From IMG/VR virus record IMGVR_UViG_3300021090_001099, positions 1-47,364 of that record: a DNA stretch of 47,364 nucleotides. One strand, given 5' to 3'. Of this stretch, positions 39,147 through 47,006 are shown piece after piece (positions within the stretch are counted from its first letter, which is position 1; each line of letters begins with the position of its first letter). A program made the translations under genes and the position numbers. Origin of the DNA: a virus. The notes under the pieces are model-generated. The model had not been told where the DNA came from. It ran no database searches and worked only from the letters and a program-made list of their open reading frames with translations.

Positions 39147-39159
39147 CCGAGAGGAACGC

Positions 39160-39795
39160 ATGAGCTCCAGCGCGAACGCGCGCGAGCGCCTGGTCCACCT
39201 CGTCCAGAAGCTCGAGCGCCTCGAGGAGGCGAAGCAAGCCGCGGCCGAGGAGCTCCGGGACGCCTTCGTCGACGCGAAGAGGGCCGGCTACGACCCGAGC
39301 ACCCTGAAGACCGTCCTTCGCCTCCGCAAGCTGACGCCGGAGGAGCGCGAGGAGCGACGGGCGCTCGAGGCGATCTACCTCGCCGCCCTCGGCATGCTCG
39401 AGGGCGGCCCCCTGCCCGACGAGGCGCGCCGACGGCTCGACGAGCAGGACAGCGCCCCGCCGAAACCCGAGCGCAGCTCCGGGCCGCAGGCGAAGGGGGC
39501 GCCAGCCCGCAAGCCGGCCGAGGCGCCGGCGCCCCCGCCCCCGCCACAGATGAGGATGAGCCTCAAGGATCCGAAGGAGGCTCGCCAGGAAGGCCGTGAC
39601 GCGGCCGCGGCAGGAAAGCGGATCTACGACAACCCGTTCCCCGCCGGTGACCCGTGTCGCGCCGCCTGGGACGAGGGCTGGTGCGCGCAGCTGAAGTCCC
39701 ACGGCATGGATACCCCCGCCGCCTACCAACGGCGTACGAAGCCTGACCAGACGGACAAGGCCGCCGGCGCCGGCGAGAAGAAGGGGGCCGCTTGA
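39160..39795 (+). CDS. GapR (DUF2312)-like protein fused to a ribosome modulation factor-like domain
   Basis: 211 residues, ATG at 39160 with GAGAGGAAC upstream. Residues 5-80 match GapR: NARERLVHLVQKLERLEEAKQAAAEELRDAFVDAKRAGYDPSTLKTVLRLRKL read in parts. GapR binds overtwisted DNA ahead of moving polymerases. After a Pro/Ala-rich linker (about 95-135), residues 139-178 read EARQEGRDAAAAGKRIYDNPFPAGDPCRAAWDEGWC, the pattern of RMF/CrpP-like proteins (RMF binds ribosomes and forms inactive dimers). Such a fusion could link DNA topology control and translation control during infection, but this is inference. Confidence 0.75.
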   Translation: MSSSANARERLVHLVQKLERLEEAKQAAAEELRDAFVDAKRAGYDPSTLKTVLRLRKLTPEEREERRALEAIYLAALGMLEGGPLPDEARRRLDEQDSAPPKPERSSGPQAKGAPARKPAEAPAPPPPPQMRMSLKDPKEARQEGRDAAAAGKRIYDNPFPAGDPCRAAWDEGWCAQLKSHGMDTPAAYQRRTKPDQTDKAAGAGEKKGAA

Positions 39796-42861: not shown

Positions 42862-43604
42862 GCGCGAGCCCGGGCCCGCAGATCCCCTTCCGGGTCCGAC
42901 GCGGGCTTCCGGCGCCGGAGGCCTTCGCGCACGGCACACGCGCGCGCTACGTGACCGGCTGCCGCTGTGAGGACTGCAGGGCCTCGAACCGCCGCTACTA
43001 CCACGAGCGCGAGGCGCGCGGCCGGGCGCTCGCCGCCGAGATCTCGGCCCCTGCGATGCCGGCGCCCCAGGAATGGACCGCCCCCGACGGAGCGAGGCGG
43101 ATCCGCGTCTACAAGCGGGCCTGCCCGGGTGTCGAGGGCGAGCCCTGTCCTCTCCGCGCGCACCTACGCAGGGACAGCAAGGGCGGAGTCTGTCGAGCCT
43201 GCCGCCACCGGCTCGCATGGAACGGTCTCGTCAGTACCGCCGCCGCGAGCGCGCACGTCCGGAAGCTCGGCTATCAGGGAGTGGGCTACAAGTCCGTGGC
43301 CGCCGCGGCGAGCGTCGGCGTCCTGACTGTCTGGAAGATCCGGTCCGGAGAGCGGATGTGGATCCGGGCGGCCACCGAGCGGCGGATCCTGGCGGTGGAC
43401 GCCGAAGCCCGGGCCGACGCGTCGACGGTGCCGGCGGGATCCACCTGGCGGCTCGTCCGGCTCCTCCTCGACGAGGGGTACACGAAGGCGCGGCTTGCCC
43501 GCGAGCTCGGGGCCCAGACGCCCGCCCTGCAGCTGGGCCGCCGCCGCGTCCTGGCCATCACGGCCGTGCGGGTCCAGCGCCTCTACCACCGGCTCACGGC
43601 ATGA
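42858..43604 (+). CDS. DNA-binding protein with CxC..C zinc-like motif and HTH
   Basis: 248 residues, GTG at 42858. Starts with HGTRARYVTGCRCEDCRASNRRYYHERE, a motif well known from phage and actinobacterial helix-turn-helix proteins. A middle part has further Cys pairs (CPGVEGEPCPLRAHL, CRACRHR), and two helix-turn-helix-like segments follow (YKSVAAAASVGVLTVWKIRSGERMWI and YTKARLARELGAQTPALQLGRRRVLAI). Directly before the replication initiator, overlapped by ATGA. It may regulate replication or late genes. Confidence 0.65.
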   Translation: MSASPGPQIPFRVRRGLPAPEAFAHGTRARYVTGCRCEDCRASNRRYYHEREARGRALAAEISAPAMPAPQEWTAPDGARRIRVYKRACPGVEGEPCPLRAHLRRDSKGGVCRACRHRLAWNGLVSTAAASAHVRKLGYQGVGYKSVAAAASVGVLTVWKIRSGERMWIRAATERRILAVDAEARADASTVPAGSTWRLVRLLLDEGYTKARLARELGAQTPALQLGRRRVLAITAVRVQRLYHRLTA

Positions 43605-44785
43605 AGCGAGGCACCCCCACCCACCCGAAGACCCTCGCGCTCGCGGCGGCCCTCGGCCTCCCGCGGTGGGGGGCGGTGGGGATTCTCGAGAGCCTCTGGC
43701 ACTTCGGGGCGTCATACGCCCGCCGCGGCGACATCGGCCGCCACAGCGACGCCCAGATAGCCATCGGGATTGGCTGGCAGGACGACGCTCGGCGCCTGGT
43801 GGCAGCGCTCGTCGACACCGGCTGGCTCGACCGCTGCTCGTGCCACCGGCTGCGGATCCACGACTGGCCGGTCCATGCGGACCGGGCCGTGGCGAAGACG
43901 CAGGAGGTCGTGCGCATGGGCTGGCTAGAGTGCTACGCGCCTCGCCAGACCACTGTAGCCCAGGACCCCGGGGGACCCGCCGGCAACGGCGATGGATCCG
44001 GGGAGGGAGCGATCCCCGAAGATGACGGCGGGGACTCGCGAGGGGGCTCTTCGTCAGACGGCTGGCTCGAGAGCCACGCGCCTCGCCAGGACCCCGGGGG
44101 GCCCGCCGGCAACGGCGATGGATCCGGGGGACGTACGCACGCGTGTCACACGCGTGTCGCACGCGTGGGTCCTGCCGGTGCCGGAGCCGGTGCCGGAGCC
44201 GGAGCCAACGGACCCCCCTATCCCCGCCGGCTGGCGCCGACGGGGGATCTGTCGATCGAGGCGCAGCGCCGCCGGGCGGTCAGGTACTGGTGCAAGCTCG
44301 GGGGACGGCCTGGGCGCCAGGACCGGAGGCAGGTGTACGAGGCGCTCGTGTCGGGGCGTCCCCTCGCCCAGGTCCTCGGCTCGATCGCGTGCAGGGTGCG
44401 GGACGACCTCGTCGCCAGAGGGCGCCTCGCGCCCACAGACCCCTGGCCGCCCCCCGGGCTGGCCCCGTTCGACCCTCCAGCCACACCGCCGCCTGAAGCG
44501 CAAGCCTCGCCGGCGGACGTCGATTCCGAGGCCGGGGCGATCGCCTGGGCGGGCGCAGGCGAGGCGCTGCGGGCGAAGCTGAGCCCGGAGGCCTGGGCGA
44601 CCTGGATCCGCCCATGCCGCGGCCTGTACGTGCGCGAGGGCCGGATCGTGGTGGAAGTGCCGGACGCGAGCTTCCTGGACTGGATCGGGCGGAACTGGAG
44701 CGCTCACCTGCAGTGGGCGGCCGCGGAGACCGGCCTCGAGGGAGTGGACCTGGTCATGGCGTCGGCGCCGGCGATCGCCGGCTGA
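43601..44785 (+). CDS. Phage replication initiator with internal iterons
   Basis: 394 residues, ATG at 43601. The N-terminal 95 residues form a winged-helix-like domain (KTLALAAALGLPRWGAVGILESLWHFGASYARRGDIGRH, then AIGIGWQDDARRLVAALVDTGWLD). A Gly/Asp/Ser-rich linker follows and encodes a repeated GWLE.HAPRQ...DPGGPAGNGDGSG block and the iterons. A second helical domain (LSIEAQRRRAVRYWCKLGGRPG) and a C-terminal DnaA domain-I-like module (LSPEAWATWIRPC...VPDASFLDWIGRNW) end the protein. Probably binds the origin within its own gene and recruits the host helicase, as lambda O does. The helicase itself is not encoded in the window. Confidence 0.75.
   Translation: MKRGTPTHPKTLALAAALGLPRWGAVGILESLWHFGASYARRGDIGRHSDAQIAIGIGWQDDARRLVAALVDTGWLDRCSCHRLRIHDWPVHADRAVAKTQEVVRMGWLECYAPRQTTVAQDPGGPAGNGDGSGEGAIPEDDGGDSRGGSSSDGWLESHAPRQDPGGPAGNGDGSGGRTHACHTRVARVGPAGAGAGAGAGANGPPYPRRLAPTGDLSIEAQRRRAVRYWCKLGGRPGRQDRRQVYEALVSGRPLAQVLGSIACRVRDDLVARGRLAPTDPWPPPGLAPFDPPATPPPEAQASPADVDSEAGAIAWAGAGEALRAKLSPEAWATWIRPCRGLYVREGRIVVEVPDASFLDWIGRNWSAHLQWAAAETGLEGVDLVMASAPAIAG
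43919..44130 (+). repeat. Direct repeat of about 70-85 bp inside the initiator gene
   Basis: Unit A at 43919-44004 and unit B at 44060-44130 share GGCTGGCT.GAG..., CACGCGCCTCGCCAG or its variant, and GCCGGCAACGGCGATGGATC. They encode a repeated GWLE-x2-APRQ ... DPGGPAGNGDGSG motif. The units frame the linker directly before the 11-bp iterons, so they may be part of the origin or result from linker expansion. Confidence 0.65.
44138..44170 (+). other. Three tandem 11-bp iterons: candidate replication origin
   Basis: CACGCGTGTCA (44138-44148), CACGCGTGTCG (44149-44159) and CACGCGTGGGT (44160-44170) stand head to tail at exactly 11-bp spacing, about one helical turn, each with the palindrome CACGCGTG. 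They sit inside the linker-coding part of the initiator gene, as the lambda iterons do in gene O. No AT-rich unwinding region is evident nearby in this GC-rich sequence, which weakens the call. Confidence 0.55.
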
Positions 44786-44787
44786 GG

Positions 44788-46596
44788 ATGGATCCCTTGG
44801 ACAAACTGCAGATCGGGCAGGATGGCTTTTCCCTGAAGGTCGAGAGCTTCGAGGACGTCGTCGCGATCCTCGGCCGTCGTGGGCGCGGGAAGACGACGAC
44901 TGCCACGGTAATCGTCGAAGGGCTCCATGCCGCCGGCGCGCGCTTCGTGGTGGTGGACCCGGTTGGCGTCTGGTGGGGGCTGAAGAGCAGCCGCGACGGA
45001 CGACGGCCGGGGATCCCAGTCGTGCTGATGGGCGGCGAGCACGGGGACGTGCCGCTCGCGCCTGAGTCCGGCGAGATCATCGCGGACTTCGTCGCGGACC
45101 CCACATCGCCCTCGGTCGTGCTCGACTTGAAGCGCTTCACTCAGGGCGAGATGGTCCGCTTCATGACGGCGTTTCTCTCACGCCTCTACCACGTCAACCC
45201 GGACAAGTCGCTCCACGTAGTGCTAGACGAGGCCGACCAGGTGGCTCCCCAGCGCCCGATGCCCGGCGAGCAGGCGATGCTCGGCGCTGCACAGCGCGTC
45301 ACGAAGCTCGGGCGAGCAAAGGGGCTACACCCTATCCTCATCACACAGAGGCCCGCCACGCTATCGAAGAACGTCCTCACCCAGGCGGGGTTGCTCATAT
45401 CGCACGCGGTCACGGGTCCCCAAGATCGCAATGCTATTGACGACTGGATCAAGGCAAACGCGGAGGAGGGCGAGCGGGAGACGTTCCTGGCCGAGCTCTC
45501 CGGCCTGCCGCGTGGCACAGCCTACTTCTGGAGTCCCGACCTCGCGCCAGACGGACGGCAGCGGGGAAAGGACGACCCGCCACTCTTCCGCCAGGTGGCC
45601 GTGCGCGATCGAGAGACGTTCGACTCGTCAGCAACCCCCAAGCGCGGCGAGGCGGTGAAGCCGAAGGCCCTGGCCGAGGTCGACCTCGAAGCGCTGAAGG
45701 GCCGGATCGCCGCGACGATCGAGAAGGCGAAGGCCCAGGACCCACGGGAGCTCCGGAAGCGGATCGCTGAGCTCGAGCGCGAGCTCGCTAAGAAGCCCGC
45801 GGCGCCGTCGCAACGGGTCGAGGTCGAGATCATCAAGCCGCGGCAGCTCCTCCGTCTCGCCGCGGTGGCGCGGATCCTCGAGCGGCGGGTCACCGCCACC
45901 GAGGAAGCCGCGCGCGTCGTCCGTAATACCTGGCAGGAGATCGACGCTGCGCTGAAGCGCGCGCGGGCGCTGCCGGGCGACCCCAATGCCCATGCCGTGA
46001 GCCGCGTACCCGGGGCGCCGGGGCTGGGAGTGTCCGGGGTGGGTCCCGGAACGCGTTCCCAGGCCCCGGTCGCCCCGGCCGTTCCTCGAGGCAGCCGCTC
46101 CACAATCGCCGAAACCGCCGCCATGCTCACCGGGCCCGAGCGGAAGATCCTCACGGCGCTCGCGCAGTACGGCACGCGACCCACGCGGGCCCTGGCGCTG
46201 CTGACCGGCTATGCGGCGAAGGGAGGCGGCTTCCGGAACACGTTGAGCGCGCTGCGCACCCGCGGCCACGTCGACGGCCGCGAAACGGTGCGCATCACCG
46301 AGTCCGGCGCCGCCGTCCTCGGCGCCTGGGAGCCGCTGCCGACCGGACAGGCACTCCTCCGGTACTGGCTCGAGCATCTGCCGGGCCCGGAGCGCAAGCT
46401 GCTCGCCACCGTGGCTGACGCCTGGCCTGGTTCGATCACCACGGAGGCGCTCGCGGCCGCGACGGGGTACGAGCCTTCGGGCGGCGGCTTCCGAAATACG
46501 TTAAGCCGGCTGCGCACGCTCGACCTGATCGAGGGCCGCGGCACGCTGCTCGCTGCCGACGAGCTCTTCGAGCCCCCGGTGGCGGTGGCCCCTTGA
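44788..46596 (+). CDS. HerA/FtsK-type P-loop ATPase with tandem winged helices (right copy)
   Basis: 602 residues, ATG at 44788 two bases after the initiator stop. Walker A AILGRRGRGKTTT near residues 26-38, Walker B LHVVLDEAD at 142-150, and ITQRPATLSKNVLTQ downstream. Coiled coil IAELERELAKK and two C-terminal winged-helix repeats (LTGYAAKGGGFRNTLS, ATGYEPSGGGFRNTLS) as in the left copy. ATPase domains of the two copies are only moderately similar, while the stretch from the coiled coil to the C-terminus is nearly the same. The gene is followed with a four-base overlap by the nuclease gene. Confidence 0.78.
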   Translation: MDPLDKLQIGQDGFSLKVESFEDVVAILGRRGRGKTTTATVIVEGLHAAGARFVVVDPVGVWWGLKSSRDGRRPGIPVVLMGGEHGDVPLAPESGEIIADFVADPTSPSVVLDLKRFTQGEMVRFMTAFLSRLYHVNPDKSLHVVLDEADQVAPQRPMPGEQAMLGAAQRVTKLGRAKGLHPILITQRPATLSKNVLTQAGLLISHAVTGPQDRNAIDDWIKANAEEGERETFLAELSGLPRGTAYFWSPDLAPDGRQRGKDDPPLFRQVAVRDRETFDSSATPKRGEAVKPKALAEVDLEALKGRIAATIEKAKAQDPRELRKRIAELERELAKKPAAPSQRVEVEIIKPRQLLRLAAVARILERRVTATEEAARVVRNTWQEIDAALKRARALPGDPNAHAVSRVPGAPGLGVSGVGPGTRSQAPVAPAVPRGSRSTIAETAAMLTGPERKILTALAQYGTRPTRALALLTGYAAKGGGFRNTLSALRTRGHVDGRETVRITESGAAVLGAWEPLPTGQALLRYWLEHLPGPERKLLATVADAWPGSITTEALAAATGYEPSGGGFRNTLSRLRTLDLIEGRGTLLAADELFEPPVAVAP

Positions 46597-47006
46597 GCCT
46601 CACCAATCCCCGCCGGTCTCGGAGTGCGCGCCGCGAGGTCACGCCCGCCGAGCTCTGGGCGCGCGAGGAGGCCGCAGCGAAGCGGCATGCCCTCGAGACT
46701 CTTCTCGCCTGGCACATCAAGACCTGGGGCCTGCCGGTACCGGTCAGGGAGCACCGTTTCGATCCTGTGAGGCGGTGGCGGTTCGACTTCGCCTGGCCGC
46801 CTTTCATGGTGGCGGCCGAGGTGGAGGGGCTGACGCGCGAGGGCGGCCGCCACCAACGGATCGCAGGGTTCGAAGCCGACGCGGAGAAGTATGTGGCCGC
46901 GCAGCTCGCCGGCTGGACCGTCCTCCGCTTCACCGCGAAACAGGTCCACTCGGCCGACGCGGTGCGGGCGATCGAGATCGCGCTCGAGCGCGCGGCCCGG
47001 CGATGA
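46593..47006 (+). CDS. PD-(D/E)XK-like endonuclease (right copy)
   Basis: 137 residues, TTG at 46593 overlapping the ATPase stop (TTGA). Core: HRFDPVRRWRFDFAWPPFMVAAEVEGL, GRHQRIAGFEADAEKYVAAQLAGWTVLRFTA. The D of RFDFAW and the E of AEVEG are the expected active-site acids. Similar to 2543-2953 in the middle but with a different N-terminus (SLTNPRRSRSARREVTPAELWAREE). Direct coupling to the ATPase gene here, without the intervening small gene, supports a functional ATPase-nuclease pair. Confidence 0.78.
   Translation: MSLTNPRRSRSARREVTPAELWAREEAAAKRHALETLLAWHIKTWGLPVPVREHRFDPVRRWRFDFAWPPFMVAAEVEGLTREGGRHQRIAGFEADAEKYVAAQLAGWTVLRFTAKQVHSADAVRAIEIALERAARR

Follow-up and report, generated by a model that had tools for sequence, protein, structure and literature searches.

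What does a phage protein do when it joins a GapR-type DNA-binding domain to a domain resembling a ribosome-hibernation factor? The question is raised by a gene in a 47,364-nucleotide stretch of viral DNA (IMG/VR record IMGVR_UViG_3300021090_001099), analysed here as a whole and called the window. The original prediction had read its product as a GapR (DUF2312) domain, a flexible linker and an RMF-like domain in one protein, and HMM search and structure prediction agreed on this architecture. The linker was real, a Pro-rich stretch at aa ~95-133 that is variable among relatives and has low pLDDT. An AAA ATPase gene at the 3' end of the fusion gene had been overlooked. The features are collected in Table 1.

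Table 1. Features of the fusion gene and of its downstream partner, in window positions.
Feature	Position	Strand	Basis
AGAGGA, plausible ribosome-binding site for the fusion gene	39150..39155	+	Sequence
GapR-RMF-fold fusion gene, 211 aa, ATG start	39160..39795	+	ORF; domain profiles; 40 distinct full-length sequences including the window's
GapR_DNA-bd domain, aa 7-78	39178..39393	+	PF10073 match; 7/9 Caulobacter GapR DNA-contact positions basic
Conserved post-GapR segment, aa 79-93, M-L-x-G-x-P-L-...-A-R-R-R-L	39394..39438	+	Family alignment
Variable Pro/Ala-rich linker, aa 94-137	39439..39570	+	Alignment; low pLDDT
RMF-fold domain, aa 139-174	39574..39681	+	Profiles, AlphaFold, Foldseek
Conserved C-terminal extension, aa 175-192, C-x6-G-M-x-x-P-x-A-x-x-R	39682..39735	+	Alignment; past the RMF match
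Partner Cdc48/FtsH-type AAA ATPase gene, 307 aa	39795..40718	+	Start overlaps the fusion stop by one base (TGATG)

GapR alone is a protein of ~89 aa. The window protein matched the GapR_DNA-bd profile PF10073 over its full length (1-72/72, 65.5 bits, E 3.3e-18, cut-off 22.6), and the profile matched 36/36 family members at E<=0.01. The DNA-contact residues described for Caulobacter GapR are K34, K42, K49, K56, K59, K60, R63, R65 and K66 (PMC7498317, PMC7373187). The window protein thus shares with GapR of Caulobacter crescentus (UPF0335/DUF2312) the whole 72-position domain, the three-helix layout and most of the basic contact positions, and it differs in its added linker and RMF-fold tail and in the ATPase encoded alongside. 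Some relatives also differ from Caulobacter GapR in lacking most of the contact residues, with just 2-4 basic positions in some prophages. In the Methylobacterium-type prophages L020, L039 and L041, 2/9 contact positions are basic, yet the RMF-fold core motif is invariant. Since the contact lysines are mostly gone in some Methylobacterium prophages, strong DNA binding is perhaps not universal in the family.

The RMF assignment was marginal when the window protein's own scores were taken alone. The RMF profile PF04957 matched aa 139-174 with 21.5 bits (E 2.5e-4), under its cut-off of 27.9, and the NCBIfam profile Rmf_CrpP_fam scored 24.3 bits (E 1.7e-5) with a cut-off of 28. Across the family, the RMF profile matched 35/36 members at E<=0.01 (best 9e-8), and its cut-off was passed by at least one relative, a prophage member in host genome G004. 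An AlphaFold monomer model made with the family alignment placed helices at residues 138-150 and 165-178 (pLDDT ~94-97). Foldseek against the PDB ranked E. coli RMF in the hibernating ribosome first (prob 0.95, TMt 0.67, E 0.78) and V. parahaemolyticus RMF second (E 1.9); both E-values are weak because the domain is tiny. The RMF-fold alignment, used as a profile against PDB sequences, found no match, and the link rests on fold comparison and family profiles. The claim that residues 139-178 are RMF-like therefore stood at the level of the relatives and the fold ranking and fell short at the level of the window protein's own score. Together, the strong GapR match, the family-wide RMF matches and the top rank of RMF in the fold search confirm the observation of a GapR-RMF fusion.

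The phage domain shares with the RMF and Rmf-CrpP family two helices and a loop, and it keeps positions G16, A19, G23, P30, R37, W40, G43 and W44, which are mostly invariant. The family-invariant motif RAAWDEGWC (aa 167-175) lies for the most part inside the domain. Relative to RMF, the phage domain is net negative, has no basic residue at the R11 position, carries an extra conserved C-terminal motif (GM-x-x-P-x-A-x-x-R), and is joined to GapR and tied to an AAA ATPase. As a separate observation, the Methylobacterium genome G002, which holds fusion locus L038 and loci L217, L221, L222 and L224-L226, contains seven RMF-like matches, and for six of these the open frame is 65-116 aa long. These matches suggest that small RMF-fold proteins form a family in alphaproteobacteria.

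Direct searches of IMG/VR and GTDB contigs found the whole fusion in 30 viral and 12 genome loci; the genome loci with a named organism were alphaproteobacterial, and one was labelled just Proteobacteria. When the RMF-fold alignment was used alone as the query, 63 loci came up, many on contigs already found, with GapR in the same frame in 60. Loci L076, L101 and L107, considered as stand-alone RMF-like proteins without GapR, turned out to be frames without a start codon before the RMF part; they look like frameshifts and were not counted. A second clade (clade B, 29 loci), reached via the neighbouring ATPase, differs slightly in its RMF-like core (NPFPFGDxRRxxWDxGWRxxSGxDGMG) and has an additional conserved segment in the middle. 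The window protein is thus one of a two-clade family of fusions found at dozens of phage or prophage loci. In Rhodobacter phages such as RcFrancesLouise, two FtsK-gamma domains stand ahead of GapR.

The GapR domain itself is common in the hosts: 204/289 genomes from the class of Chelatococcus (Alphaproteobacteria) have a match. Among the GapR matches listed for these 289 genomes, one extends through the RMF tail, that of the sample's centre genome, which argues that the fusion is a phage feature. Plasmids yielded no fusion at E<=1e-3. Within the INPHARED phage records, a GapR domain was present in 155/50,697 and an RMF-tailed GapR in 11, all of them Rhodobacter phages; the tail of RcKemmy was read directly. 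A direct tblastn of the window protein against the phage collection returned no full-length relative.

Does the tail bind ribosomes? The original prediction had proposed that the fusion tethers stress on phage DNA to ribosomes, or else that the RMF-like part has another ligand. In E. coli RMF, R3, K5 and R11 bind the ribosome, and G23 and R45 serve in ribosome dimerisation (PMC8778775). In the phage alignment the R11 position is mostly occupied by E or A in clade A, and by G, E or Q in clade B. The R3 and K5 positions are not part of the aligned region and lie in the variable linker. The R45 position keeps Arg in clade B and is an invariant Cys in clade A. The RMF-fold domain has a median net charge of -1, compared with +4 for aa 8-47 of E. 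coli RMF. Judged from the alignment, the RMF fold is kept and its ribosome-binding surface appears to be lost. Binding of host ribosomes, which would couple DNA topology to translation, is consistent with the fold match to RMF and with the Arg retained by clade B; it is at odds with the R11 position and the net charge, RMF is mainly a gammaproteobacterial factor (PMC8778775), and the model leaves the ATPase partner unexplained. With the fold retained but its ribosome-binding surface apparently gone, we consider this function very unlikely. Another ligand fits better than ribosomes.

The ATPase partner offers a different lead. In 35/37 non-redundant loci the first conserved gene to follow the fusion on its strand encoded an ATPase homologue, and in the other two the contigs stop 342 and 266 bases past the fusion gene. 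The two genes overlap by 1-8 bp or lie <=30 bp apart in most loci, with gaps of 171-599 bp in five. The next most shared neighbour family, in a clustering of ORFs from a simple gene finder, occurred in 7/37 loci. In the reverse direction, a DNA pattern for the ATPase picked out 66 viral contigs, 58 of which had GapR and an RMF-like domain in one upstream ORF; the pattern was drawn from fusion-adjacent ATPases, so this test is not fully independent, yet it reached a clade unused in its design. Among the remaining contigs, seven are cut off by the contig end and one, L209, is a real exception. L209 lacks a GapR-RMF gene although its contig reaches far enough upstream to hold one; the tail of its upstream ORF (DSGAERGAA) resembles the fusion C-terminus, which would fit a replacement of the core.

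The ATPase accompanies the RMF-tailed GapR and not GapR alone, since the 11 INPHARED records with a close ATPase are the same 11 with an RMF-tailed GapR, these being close relatives that represent few independent events, and ~144 phage GapR records have no close ATPase. Two stand-alone GapR loci likewise had no such ATPase nearby. The RMF-fold part is more conserved than the GapR part (mean identities of 0.61 against 0.47 for clade A and of 0.58 against 0.47 for clade B). Its distances also correlated slightly better with those of the ATPase (0.66 vs 0.57; 0.45 vs 0.38), a correlation that is expected for linked genes anyway and cannot tell which domain touches the ATPase. In some loci the neighbours look by eye like DnaB helicase, beta clamp, RusA, exonuclease and ParB, names read from the sequences and not from library hits, and these neighbours suggest a role in replication or recombination.

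In the window, the placement of the fusion gene in an early operon is plausible: it fits the rightward genes after the integrase, which include a DnaA_N protein and a HerA-like ATPase. The former, encoded at 43601-44785, carries, close to its C-terminal end (aa 316-374), a domain like the N-terminal one of DnaA and is a possible phage replication initiator. HerA-like ATPase genes lie at 487-2256 and 44797-46596 and are diverged copies with 68-84% nucleotide identity. The left end of the contig (1-277) repeats part of the right end (44515-44791) at 97% identity, and 1307-2259 corresponds to 45642-46599; either a gene was truly duplicated or the assembly is chimeric or permuted.

Conserved Walker A, Walker B and WRRF motifs mark the window ATPase as a classical AAA protein. 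By profile it was closest to p97/Cdc48, and its model (pLDDT 93) most resembled Rix7, FtsHi, proteasomal Rpt and Msp1, all of which, like p97/Cdc48, are known protein unfoldases or remodellers. In one other locus (L011:5612-7567), Walker A of the partner ATPase (GPPGTGK/TT) is split by an intein-like insertion that matches a LAGLIDADG endonuclease. PADLOC profiles for IetA, the AAA ATPase that acts with the subtilase IetS in IetAS, matched the ATPases of the window (E 5e-48) and of Rhodobacter phages (E 1e-52); PADLOC gave no match for the fusion protein itself.

These matches bring in a role in defence, superinfection exclusion or counter-defence, in which a GapR-RMF protein that senses DNA would have taken the place of the subtilase beside an IetA-like ATPase, or the host IetAS would be blunted by an orphan IetA. 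Enterobacter and Paenibacillus phages indeed encode an IetA-like ATPase followed by a Peptidase_S8 gene. Against such a role, the identity to those phage ATPases is ~30-34%, the window copy lies among putative early genes, the ATPase seldom occurs without the fusion, and no S8 protease was present in any locus examined: with two phage S8 partners as tblastn queries, neither the window nor the GapR-RMF and ATPase loci gave anything better than E 0.69 outside the partners' own records. We therefore hold a defence-related function to be quite unlikely. By its sequence, the ATPase is best described as an IetA relative that is not a member of IetAS. It shares a related core with IetA, and the phage pair differs from IetAS in having no subtilase, in having no C-terminal HTH match and in having a DNA-binding GapR-RMF protein encoded upstream as the partner. 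An HTH-like match is found at the C-terminus of two distant IetA relatives, IetA-like ATPases of Enterobacter and Paenibacillus phages, and the domain profile search found none in the window ATPase; DNA binding could therefore come from the GapR partner.

The reading that we tentatively prefer, and put a little short of an even chance, is that the fusion serves as DNA-binding adaptor in a phage DNA-remodelling module of two genes, with an AAA unfoldase as the other member. The GapR domain would clamp phage DNA, probably overtwisted, and the flexible linker would present the RMF-fold domain. That domain may dock the AAA ATPase of the next gene or serve as its engagement handle. The unfoldase, of Cdc48/Rpt/Msp1 type, would then pull apart or remove protein complexes on replicating or recombining phage DNA. 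We infer this adaptor model, and with it that the fusion and ATPase proteins touch, from the greater conservation of the RMF-fold half, the association of the ATPase with the RMF tail, and an ATPase without the apparent DNA-binding segment of its cousins. The L209 ATPase without a fusion and the loss of GapR contact residues in some prophages speak against it.

The near-obligatory pairing, the unfoldase type of the AAA protein, the flexible linker and a conserved tail motif that ends in basic residues would also suit an ATPase that acts on the fusion itself, loading or stripping GapR clamps by gripping the RMF-fold tail as a tag, with no third substrate. Host GapR, in the same 204 genomes and with the single tailed protein among the matches listed, seems to work without such a tail, and we judge this alternative unlikely. 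A more specific form of the adaptor model, which we regard as somewhat unlikely, is that phages encode a DNA-tethered Cdc48-like segregase, in which the RMF fold would be repurposed as an AAA adaptor and the GapR clamp would bring the unfoldase to the overtwisted DNA that lies in front of forks or RNA polymerase. To our knowledge, no such machine has been described in a bacterial virus.

How much of this has been described before? The fusion recurs across the loci above; no description of the GapR and RMF combination was found in the non-subscription literature searched, in agreement with the original prediction. Within the same scope, DUF2312 did not appear in phage papers, a Rhodobacter phage paper mentions neither GapR nor DUF2312, and GapR and ribosome modulation factor co-occur in one paper, on Caulobacter NtrC, where the factor is mentioned once. 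ORF28 of Erythrobacter phage R34L1 was reported in 2025 as the first GapR in a phage, with no mention of RMF (PMC12185513). It shares the phage-carried GapR domain and differs in that GapR only was reported; the 155 phage records with the domain contradict its claim to be the first. PHROG 4212 and PHROG 3757 are phage families of unknown function that match the GapR part and the ATPase, and neither is annotated with a function or as one of a linked pair. The parts are known separately, and their combination with a near-obligatory ATPase partner appears to be undescribed.

If the adaptor model is true, phages build a DNA-topology-guided protein unfoldase, the RMF/CrpP fold has a non-ribosomal role, and PHROG 4212 and 3757 gain a functional lead. 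The pair is directly testable, as it is carried by cultured Rhodobacter capsulatus phages.
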